From Microbacterium commune (GTDB taxonomy: Bacteria; Actinomycetota; Actinomycetes; Actinomycetales; Microbacteriaceae), in assembly GCF_014836945.1 (NCBI RefSeq), contig NZ_JACSPX010000001.1, positions 124,001 through 188,000 of the forward strand: a stretch of DNA of 64,000 nt. Reading direction: 5' to 3'. Shown here one piece after another: positions 52,649-59,000 of this stretch (position 1 is its first letter; every line of letters begins with the position of its first letter). The notes beneath the pieces were generated by a model. The model ran no database searches. It saw nothing but the letters and a program-made list of their open reading frames with translations, and was not told the DNA's origin. Both the position numbers and the translations under genes were made by a program.

Positions 52649-53800
52649 TCAGCCGGTGATGACCTGGGCGGTGCCGAGCGGGGCATCGGAGCCCATCTCG
52701 GCGGCGATGCGATTCGCCTCTTCGATGAGGGTGGCGACGATGTCGGCCTCGGGCACGGTCTTGATGACCTCTCCCTTGACGAAGATCTGACCCTTGCCGT
52801 TGCCCGATGCGACACCGAGATCGGCCTCGCGCGCCTCGCCCGGACCATTCACGACACAGCCCATCACGGCGACGCGCAGCGGCACCGTCATGTCCTTCAG
52901 GCCTTCGGTGACGTCGTCCGCGAGGGTGTACACGTCGACCTGGGCGCGACCGCACGAGGGGCAGGAGACGATCTCGAGCTTGCGCTCTCGCAGGTTCAGC
53001 GACTGCAGGATCTGGTGCCCGACCTTGACCTCTTCGGCCGGCGGCGCCGACAGCGAGACGCGGATCGTGTCGCCGATGCCCTCGCCCAGCAGGATGCCGA
53101 ACGCCGTGGCGCTCTTGATGGTGCCCTGGAAGGCAGGACCTGCCTCGGTGACCCCGAGGTGCAGCGGCCAGTCACCTCGTTCGGCGAGCTGACGGTAGGC
53201 CTTCACCATGACGACGGGGTCGTTGTGCTTGACCGAGATCTTGAAGTCGTGGAAGTCGTGCTCCTCGAACAGCGATGCCTCCCAGACGGCGCTCTCCACG
53301 AGAGCCTCGGGCGTCGCCTTGCCGTACTTCTGCAGCAGGCGCGGATCGAGCGAGCCGGCGTTCACGCCGATGCGCAGCGACACGCCCGCAGCCTTCGCCG
53401 CAGCGGCGATCGCACCCACCTGGTCGTCGAACTTGCGGATGTTGCCGGGATTGACGCGGACAGCTCCGCAGCCGGCGTCGATCGCCTGGAAGACGTACTT
53501 CGGCTGGAAGTGGATGTCGGCGATCACCGGGATCTGGCTCTTCTTCGCGATGATGTGCAGCACATCCGCGTCATCCTGCGAGGGCACCGCCACGCGGACG
53601 ATCTCGCAGCCCGACGCCGTGAGCTCGGCGATCTGCTGCAACGTGCCGTTGATGTCGGTGGTCTTCGTCGTCGTCATCGACTGGACACTGACGGGAGCGT
53701 CACCGCCGACGAGCACCTTGCCGACCCGGATCTGACGGGACTTGCGACGTGGGGCGAGGACTTCGGGGACGCGCGGCATCCCAAGATTCACTGCAGGCAC
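52649..53800 (-). CDS. ispG: 4-hydroxy-3-methylbut-2-en-1-yl diphosphate synthase
   Basis: A 383-residue 4Fe-4S enzyme of the MEP isoprenoid pathway. The cluster ligands are the cysteines of CPSCGR (near 280) and of [10 protein letters not shown] (near 315), with the conserved glutamate in the latter. The TIM-barrel N-terminal half has [13 protein letters not shown] and [13 protein letters not shown]. The GTG start has TAGCCT six bases upstream (53807-53812), so the mRNA is probably leaderless. With dxr at 59-60 kb it supplies two MEP-pathway steps; the two genes normally flank rseP closely but are spread out here. Confidence 0.95.
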
Positions 53801-53954
53801 CCGTCAAGGCTACCGCCGGTCGATCGGCGTCGGCTGGATGTCGGCTGCTCCGTGTCCGATCGTCGTGTGCACCCCCACCCTTCTGAGCCGACGAAGGGCT
53901 GCCCGGTCCGTCACGAGCCGGATCACGCACCTTGCGATGTGCTAATTTCACGGT

Positions 53955-53990
53955 ATGTCCGCGACCCGCACCTGGTGGCCCGCCTTCTAG
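53955..53990 (+). CDS. trpL: trp leader peptide
   Basis: An 11-codon open frame encoding MSATRTWWPAF, with tandem tryptophan codons at positions 7 and 8, ending in TAG just before a terminator-competent region. Such a peptide senses charged tRNA-Trp by ribosome stalling. TAATTT at 53943-53948 is exactly six bases before the ATG, so the leader appears to be translated from a leaderless transcript with no Shine-Dalgarno. It lies about 90 bases upstream of a fused anthranilate synthase gene. The combination of Trp codons, mutually exclusive hairpins and target gene makes the call strong. Confidence 0.9.
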   Translation: MSATRTWWPAF

Positions 53991-54045
53991 GCGGTGATTC
54001 GCGTACCCACGAGATCAGACCGCCTCCCGGGGCGGTCTTTTTCTT
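53980..54045 (+). terminator. Tryptophan attenuator
   Basis: Three competing pairings are visible. CCGCC (53980-53984) with GGCGG (53990-53994) forms a pause hairpin over the end of trpL. GGCGGT (53990-53995) with ACCGCC (54019-54024) forms an antiterminator. AGACCGCC (54017-54024) with GGCGGTCT (54031-54038) forms the intrinsic terminator, followed by a U-rich tract to 54045. Stalling at the Trp codons would free the antiterminator. Confidence 0.88.
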
Positions 54046-54078
54046 GCCCGCACCGGATCCCCGACCGAGGAGACACCG

Positions 54079-57389: not shown

Positions 57390-59000
57390 ATGACCACGAC
57401 ATCGCTGCCCCCTGTGCTCCGTCCGGCCGACCCACCCCGTCGTGCCCTGGCAGAGCTGGCCGAACGCTTCGCCCGAGACGTCCGCGGTGACATCGCCGAC
57501 GTGCAGCTGAGCGGCATCACGCTCGCGACCGCCGACCTGCGCGCAGGAGAGGCGTTCGTCGCCATCCAGGGCGTCAACCGGCACGGCGCCGAGTTCGTGC
57601 AGACCGCGGCGGAGAAGGGCGCGGTCGCGATCATCACAGACGAGGCAGGGGCCGGGATCGCCGGATCTGCGGGTCTGCCGATCATCGTGGTGGACGACCC
57701 GCGCGGGGTGCTCGGCGCCCTGAGCGCGTGGGTGTACGGCACCGGCGCGGGCGACCCGCTGCCGCTGCTGTTCGGCACCACGGGCACCAACGGCAAGACG
57801 AGCGTGTCGCACCTGCTGCAGGGCCTGCTCGATCAGATCGGGGTCGTGTCGGGTCTGTCGTCGACGGCAGAGCGGCACATCGCCGGTGAGGTGATCGTCT
57901 CGCGTCTGACCACACCGGAGGCATCCGAGATGCATGCCCTGCTCGCCCTGATGCGCGAGCGGAAGGTCGAGGCGGTCGCGGTCGAGGTCAGCGCGCAGGC
58001 CCTGTCACGGCACCGCGTGGACGGCATCATGTTCGACGTCGCCGGGTTCACCAATCTCTCGCACGACCATCTCGACGACTACGCCGACATGGAGGAGTAC
58101 TTCGAGGCCAAGCTCCCGCTGTTCACCCCGGAGCGGTCGCGCCGCGCCGTCGTGAGCGTGGACTCGTCGTCCGGCGCCATCGTCGTCGAGCGCGCCACCG
58201 TGCCGGTCGTCACCGTCGGCACGCCGGCGATCGCCGCCGACCCCGAGGCCGCCGCGCGTGCGGACTGGGTCGTCTCGATCGATGACGAGCGCCCCAGCGG
58301 CACCGCATTCACGCTCACCGGTCCTGCGGGGCGCACTCTGTCGAGCGTCGTTCCCGTGATCGGACCGCACATGGCGGCCAACGCGGGGCTCGCGATCGTC
58401 ATGCTGCTCGAGGGCGGGTACGAGTGGGACCGCATCGCCGATGCTCTCGACCGCGACGGTCACATCGTCGCGCACCTGCCCGGACGCACCCAGTTCATCT
58501 CGGGCGAGACCGGCCCCGCCGTCTACGTCGACTTCGGACACTCCCCCGACGCCTTCGAGAAGACCCTGGCCGCGGTTCGTCGGGTCACCCCGGGGAAGGT
58601 GCTGATGCTGTTCGGCGCCGATGGCGACCGCGATGCCACCAAGCGCTTCGACATGGCCCGCACCGCCGTGGAGGGCAGCGACATCCTCGTGATCACCGAC
58701 CACCACCCCCGGTTCGAGGACCCGGCGTCGATCCGCGCCACCCTCGTCGAGGGGGCCCGTCGCGCACGGCCGGACGCCAAGATCCACGAGGTGTCGCCGC
58801 CGGAGGACGCGATCGTGACCGCGGTCGGGCTGGTCGGCGAAGGGGATGCCATCCTTTGGGCGGGGCCGGGGCACCAGGACTACCGCGACATCCGCGGAGT
58901 GCGCACGCCGTACTCGGCCCGTGAGCTGGCCCGCCGGGCGCTCATCGCCGCCGGATGGCCTGCTCCCGAATCGCACTGGCCCGTCCCCTACACCGACTGA
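57390..59000 (+). CDS. MurE-like Mur ligase with altered DNPR motif
   Basis: A 536-residue ATP-dependent ligase of the MurE type, with the P-loop GTTGTNGKTS (near 129-138), TTPEASEMHALLALM, a carbamylated-lysine-type loop, and GADGDRDATKR (about 410-420). The amino-acid-selecting DNPR motif of MurE is replaced by HHPR (438-441, within DHHPRFEDP), so the added residue is probably not meso-diaminopimelate. Relatives of this genus are known to have unusual peptidoglycan. It may add a different diamino acid to UDP-MurNAc-dipeptide or serve another peptide-like precursor. It lies away from any cell-wall cluster, divergent from rseP. Confidence 0.82.
   Translation: MTTTSLPPVLRPADPPRRALAELAERFARDVRGDIADVQLSGITLATADLRAGEAFVAIQGVNRHGAEFVQTAAEKGAVAIITDEAGAGIAGSAGLPIIVVDDPRGVLGALSAWVYGTGAGDPLPLLFGTTGTNGKTSVSHLLQGLLDQIGVVSGLSSTAERHIAGEVIVSRLTTPEASEMHALLALMRERKVEAVAVEVSAQALSRHRVDGIMFDVAGFTNLSHDHLDDYADMEEYFEAKLPLFTPERSRRAVVSVDSSSGAIVVERATVPVVTVGTPAIAADPEAAARADWVVSIDDERPSGTAFTLTGPAGRTLSSVVPVIGPHMAANAGLAIVMLLEGGYEWDRIADALDRDGHIVAHLPGRTQFISGETGPAVYVDFGHSPDAFEKTLAAVRRVTPGKVLMLFGADGDRDATKRFDMARTAVEGSDILVITDHHPRFEDPASIRATLVEGARRARPDAKIHEVSPPEDAIVTAVGLVGEGDAILWAGPGHQDYRDIRGVRTPYSARELARRALIAAGWPAPESHWPVPYTD

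Follow-up and report, generated by a model that had tools for sequence, protein, structure and literature searches.

The DNA analysed here (64,000 nt of a Microbacterium commune contig; hereafter the window) contains a gene for a fused chorismate-binding and glutamine amidotransferase protein that is preceded by a short reading frame with two adjacent tryptophan codons. This arrangement raises the question whether the gene is controlled by a ribosome-mediated tryptophan attenuator, how the sensing ribosome would be loaded, and what the controlled enzyme makes. A previous, sequence-only reading of this DNA described an attenuator of about 100 bases with a tandem-Trp (WW) leader and a U-tailed terminator. 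This description held up: the arms and the U tract could be located (Table 1), and they are conserved and covarying. We consider it very likely that the element is a classical ribosome-mediated tryptophan attenuator, with a sensing ribosome predicted to start on a leaderless transcript. The analysis shows which sequence elements are present, that they are conserved and covary, and which genes the genome contains; the start site, the stalling, the direction of the response and the enzyme product are inferred.

Table 1. Features of the putative attenuator and of the controlled gene (window coordinates).
Feature	Position	Strand	Basis and remarks
Extended -10-like promoter element, TGTGC-TAATTT	53938..53948	+	Sequence; putative promoter function
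Leader ORF, MSATRTWWPAF, 11 codons	53955..53990	+	Sequence; probably leaderless; Trp codons at 53973-53975 and 53976-53978
Arm X (CGCGA)	53960..53964	+	Pairs with Y and lengthens the protector hairpin; own-partner pairing above all 2000 permutations
Arm A (CCGCC)	53980..53984	+	Partner of B; a ribosome stalled on the Trp codons would cover it
Arm B (GGCGGT)	53990..53995	+	Pairs with A (protector) or C (antiterminator)
Arm Y (TCGCG)	53999..54003	+	Pairs with X
Arm C (AGACCGCCT)	54017..54025	+	5' arm of the terminator; 54019-54024 pairs with B too
Arm D (GGGCGGTCT)	54030..54038	+	3' arm of the terminator
U tract (TTTTTCTT) of the intrinsic terminator	54038..54045	+	Sequence; T-rich
Shine-Dalgarno sequence of the structural gene, GAGGAG	54067..54072	+	Sequence
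Fused Chorismate_bind and class-I glutamine amidotransferase protein, 626 aa	54079..55959	+	Domain search; predicted TrpEG

The protector A:B joins CCGCC (53980-53984) to GGCGG (53990-53994), the antiterminator B:C joins GGCGGT (53990-53995) to ACCGCC (54019-54024), and the intrinsic terminator C:D joins AGACCGCCT (54017-54025) to GGGCGGTCT (54030-54038); the three overlap, as required of a ribosome-mediated trp attenuator. They had been described as mutually exclusive. All three do exist, but as B is common to A:B and B:C, and C is common to B:C and C:D, there are only two exclusive states, A:B with C:D, or B:C. An outer stem X:Y (53960-53964 with 53999-54003), unnamed in the previous reading, is present as well.

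According to the proposed mechanism, RNA polymerase would start at the leader AUG or immediately beside it, and a ribosome would load there. If charged tRNA-Trp is scarce, this ribosome would stall at UGG UGG and cover A (and X), B:C would pair, no terminator would form, and the anthranilate synthase gene would be transcribed. With ample tryptophan, the ribosome would reach UAG and cover B, C:D would pair, and transcription would stop at the U tract. If the leader is not translated, X:Y and A:B would form and lock B away, which would lead to termination as well. The spacing fits the ribosome footprint as generally known: a ribosome whose A site holds the first Trp codon covers A but not B, and one at the stop codon covers B. 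The window element folds with a z-score of -2.46 (3 of 200 shuffles fold equally well). Equilibrium folds retained the terminator even with the stalled ribosome masked in, and masking alone did not yield the antiterminator; the antiterminator must therefore win by forming first.

The region is short and GC-rich, and hairpins are common in such DNA. A chance mini-ORF in front of an ordinary terminator, e.g. one insulating the divergent upstream neighbour ispG (minus strand, 52649-53800; NCBIfam), would thus look similar at first sight. However, ispG faces this region with its 5' end, which makes a terminator for that gene unexpected at this place, and the element is conserved and covarying across loci. 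Furthermore, a WW mini-ORF with TAnnnT 5-8 nt upstream occurs only once in the window, counting either strand, and in none of 10 random first-order Markov windows. We therefore give such a coincidence practically no credence and retain the attenuator.

As to the loading of the ribosome, the sequence-only reading had pointed to a TAATTT hexamer six bases before the leader ATG and to the absence of a Shine-Dalgarno sequence. The rechecked coordinates agree with both statements: TAATTT (53943-53948) is followed by the spacer CACGGT (53949-53954), i.e., 6 nt to the ATG, and no Shine-Dalgarno-like tetramer is found at -20 to -5 before the leader ATG of the window. Among 94 surveyed loci (13 from one family sample, 80 named loci and the window), a WW leader stands ahead of the fused-gene orthologue in 85. 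In every one of these 85 loci, a TAnnnT hexamer ends 6-8 nt 5' of the leader start that was chosen, the start chooser being one that favours starts with a hexamer. For this reason a hexamer-blind start rule was run, and it still placed TAnnnT 5-8 nt 5' of the start in 78 of the 85 loci, with controls giving a mean of 1.4 (maximum 6) for plain letter shuffles and 0.15 (maximum 2) for random upstream positions. Shine-Dalgarno-like tetramers occur in just 2 of the 85 leaders. For Streptomyces lividans TK24, leaderless transcription of trpL1 was reported in 2021 from mapped start sites, according to the accessible text of PMC8079986. The fixed spacing of TAnnnT, the scarcity of Shine-Dalgarno sequences and this precedent suggest that the leader ORF is very probably leaderless, as had been proposed for the window.

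The same attenuator could operate on a transcript that begins further upstream, with the leader ORF read from a leadered mRNA devoid of a Shine-Dalgarno sequence. Indeed, TAnnnT is a loose motif, and the leaderless start in the window rests on sequence. Still, the hexamer spacing under both start rules, the two tetramers among 85 leaders and the report on trpL1 all speak against a leadered transcript, which we regard as improbable. Starting from the leaderless attenuator, one may go further and suppose that its function strictly depends on the leaderless start, which would then be more than a local habit. In this case an extended -10 promoter would be fused to the first sensing codon, and the ribosome would load on the first nascent nucleotides. 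This extension is speculative and rather unlikely. If true, it would allow the whole sense-and-decide circuit to be accommodated in ~90 nt, and it would explain the 6-8 nt spacing between hexamer and start across actinobacterial genera despite diverging leader peptides, flanks and terminators.

A short ORF with tandem Trp codons, present at 85 of the 94 loci of the fused gene, was found in front of none of the seven canonical TrpE loci. Outside Microbacterium, the leader pattern is found in Plantibacter, Agromyces, Jiangella, Blastococcus, Promicromonospora, Myceligenerans, Kitasatospora, Kutzneria, Micromonospora, Rhodococcus and Yinghuangia. As there are near-copies within Microbacterium and many near relatives, the locus counts are less independent than they look. 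Nine loci gave no leader; two of them have no upstream DNA, and in the seven that have it (L015, L117, L121, L123, L125, L133, L136) no WW leader was found. L015 belongs to a member of the family with a small genome (G027, 1.4 Mb) that keeps the fused gene without a WW leader and without a canonical TrpE over the cut-off; possibly, attenuation was lost there with genome reduction. The fused copies of Ornithinimicrobium and Serinicoccus (L117, L121, L123, L125) have no WW leader in 420 nt upstream, and L117, L121 and L123, the copies placed in the tree, form one clade. In the stretches of the window's own genome that were examined, no WW leader was found 5' of trpD, trpC, pabB and the isochorismate synthase gene; one frame on the trpC side has two Trp codons, but has neither WW nor the hexamer.

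In a first search with a covariance model, 38 of 58 relatives had a match. Of the matched loci, 30 were examined, and each of them precedes the fused gene, 29 as judged by motif and one by tblastn (59% identity); the latter has the leader VRAFSNRQWWPAS and no TAnnnT at the expected place. Within the genus, the model finds the element in 58 of 59 genomes, among them all 52 of good quality, with the reservation that model R1 was possibly built from species also present among the genomes searched. In the window, the element scores 83.3 bits and the next-best place 18.2 bits, the former being partly so by construction, since the window is among the 41 rows that built the model. The window has no Rfam match at the gathering score, and the Trp_leader family (presumably accession RF00513) is absent from its four sub-threshold matches. 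The best of these was suhB (E 0.13, 18.3 bits versus a cut-off of 41), and none of them is a credible family. A degenerate pattern of the S. lividans trpL1 leader had no match across 394 genomes of the class.

The structure was studied in an alignment of 41 of the 85 leader loci, hand-picked for diversity and a clear terminator. The consensus fold of these rows is exactly A:B and C:D; 97.7% of the cells are paired, and 24 cells in four pairs have changes on both sides, all of them confined to the terminator. Of five measures, four were not reached by any of 500 shuffles, and the fifth (further pair types) was reached by 69. The B:C pairing is formed in 91.2% of the cells, versus 26-69% when slid, and its five-pair core is near-invariant and without covariation, as would be expected if arm B has to fit both A and C. 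In an alignment-free comparison of 77 unique loci, the own-partner pairing of X:Y, A:B and C:D was reached in none of 2000 permutations, and that of B:C lay above all but three. With 31 hand-picked diverse loci, the permutations reaching the observed value were 0 of 5000 for X:Y, 16 for A:B and 0 for C:D; B:C was not outstanding, with 878 of 5000 as high. This weak result is expected of an invariant core, yet it is no positive evidence for B:C. The terminator and the stem spanning the leader covary, and the antiterminator shows an invariant core instead. The terminator helix finder plainly chose a wrong helix in some rows (e.g., L076, L079, L088, L090-L092, L096). Outside Microbacterium (L007-L017, L103-L111 and others), the terminator often has the form ACGACCGCC...GGCGGTCGT and its U tract is weak (2-5 T in 8); the window terminator differs in having AGACCGCC...GGCGGTCT and a U-run.

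Which enzyme is controlled? The window genome is 99.99% complete and has three chorismate-binding genes. Besides the fused gene, one passes the pabB cut-off (332.9 versus 328.4 bits) and one the isochorismate synthase cut-off (236.1 versus 224.75 bits); trpD and trpC are present on other contigs. As the other two genes are PabB and isochorismate synthase, the gene content makes it very probable that this genome encodes no anthranilate synthase besides the fused one. The closest named relative of the fused protein found is from Microbacterium esteraromaticum (85% identical). The protein does not belong to the canonical class: it scores 97.8 bits on NF010086 (canonical TrpE; cut-off 693). No genome of the genus passes this cut-off (0 of 59; best scores 148-269 bits). 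As the cut-off is strict and was passed in none of 14 control genomes either, the absence of canonical TrpE from the 59 genomes rests on the scores rather than on the cut-off alone; canonical TrpE proteins of the family score 663-762 bits. In a wider sample of the family, the fused gene is present in 14 of 120 genomes (in one of them in pieces), and seven of these 14 also possess a canonical TrpE, six over the cut-off and one at 663 bits.

The best solved relative of the fused protein is 3r74 (541.5 bits), which we take to be PhzE, although its depositors named the molecule generically as anthranilate/PABA synthase component I. The fused gene could accordingly encode an ADIC synthase of a phenazine-like pathway instead of an anthranilate synthase, all the more as the two activities are said, in the available part of PMC5958127, to be indistinguishable by sequence alone. 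This possibility appears highly improbable. The leader encodes tryptophan, trpD and trpC are present with only PabB and isochorismate synthase as the other chorismate-binding enzymes, the PhzE of Pseudomonas aeruginosa PA7 belongs to a separate leader-less clade, and the similar enzyme of S. venezuelae is an anthranilate synthase according to the accessible text of PMC3111181. We thus continue to regard the product as a predicted anthranilate synthase.

The enzyme had been called a fused enzyme of the PhzE branch. It is indeed fused, but "PhzE branch" is misleading. In the trees (one of 72 rows, with 29 of the 80 named loci and without L017, whose match is in pieces, and one of 60 rows), PA7 PhzE and seven leader-less copies form one clade with support 100. 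The window protein lies outside this phenazine-operon PhzE clade and groups among the leader-bearing actinobacterial enzymes. The PhzE clade of eight rows adjoins the Streptomyces-type TrpEG. In an AU test on 51 rows, which applies to the unrooted tree only, a side made up of Streptomyces-type TrpEG and PhzE was not rejected (p 0.154), and one arrangement that placed PhzE outside a wider group was (p 5e-5). It looks as if the phenazine PhzE had arisen from a trp-attenuated anthranilate synthase with loss of the leader, with the rooting of the fused family unsure because the outgroup branch is very long. Members of the PhzE clade, in which the leader-less copies come from Streptomyces-type genomes, are L133, L136, L137, L139, L141, L143, L150 and L163, located beside leader-bearing Streptomyces-type TrpEG.

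The LLES feedback motif is present in all seven canonical TrpE of the family and missing from the window protein, as had been seen before; of 118 fused open frames examined, just 4 contain it anywhere. From this, attenuation had been suggested to replace allosteric control. The fused TrpEG of S. venezuelae is reportedly inhibited by tryptophan (Ashenafi 2015). This enzyme is a fused, PhzE-like anthranilate synthase, as described in the accessible text of PMC3111181, and because of this precedent the suggestion is unsupported: a missing LLES in PhzE-like enzymes, tempting as the reading is, does not prove missing feedback inhibition.

The S. venezuelae trp attenuator and TrpEG are said to have been studied by Lin in 1998 and by Ashenafi in 2008/2015. 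That system was tested by experiment, whereas the window system is known here from its sequence. Tryptophan-dependent attenuation of the S. venezuelae trp genes is cited in the accessible part of PMC4833913. Trp attenuators of Streptomyces and Corynebacterium were predicted in 2005 (Seliverstov 2005, PMC1262725), and two such attenuators had been studied experimentally before (portions of PMC1262725 and PMC4833913). As far as the available text of PMC1262725 goes, these attenuators resemble that of the window in the tandem UGG, the GC-rich poly-U terminator and the complementary GGCC-type triples, the Corynebacterium leaders govern whole trp operons whereas the window leader governs one gene, and Microbacterium is not among them. 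The S. lividans trpL1-trpE arrangement, as given in the accessible text of PMC8079986, is the same in having a tandem-Trp leader, transcribed leaderless there and probably so in the window, together with hairpins, a U-rich stretch and a monocistronic anthranilate synthase gene; its leader has 18 residues with three Trp codons, versus 11 residues with two in the window. S. coelicolor has several trpE genes (as stated in part of PMC5036795), whereas the window genome is without a canonical TrpE. Leaderless short ORFs serve as amino-acid sensors in the polycysteine attenuators of mycobacteria (Canestrari 2020, cited in PMC13236596). Those sense cysteine, and according to the available text of PMC1262725 the mycobacterial cys operons had no conserved terminator hairpin in front of them.

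In one genus with large genomes that is probably Streptomyces, the fused protein is present in 25 of 25 genomes, with a WW leader at 24 of 30 loci, from 24 genomes. These leaders are nearly identical, one residue off trpL1, and stand ahead of the same fused enzyme family, i.e., a trpL1-type leader appears to control a same-family fused anthranilate synthase in this probable Streptomyces. The six loci without WW, PA7 PhzE and one further locus, from Streptomyces, together form a single clade. As the same kind of switch has already been described in Streptomyces, the window attenuator is a well-preserved but ordinary member. A full-text search of an open-access library found no paper on trp attenuation or the leader peptide in Microbacterium, and the present analysis extends the arrangement of a (here probably) leaderless trpL with fused TrpEG to this genus, where it appears, as judged from the gene content, to govern the only way into tryptophan synthesis. 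The loci of the two surveys (85 loci in one, 58 of 59 genomes in the other) make up a large comparative set with a fixed promoter-to-start distance, which could serve as a cheap testing ground for the need of leaderless initiation in attenuation.

Downstream of the fused gene, a MurE-family ligase and Dxr are recognised (NCBIfam), together with an RseP-like frame below its cut-off. The MurE-family ligase gene, at 57390-59000 of the window (335.6 bits to TIGR01085, over the cut-off), lies between the RseP-like frame and dxr.
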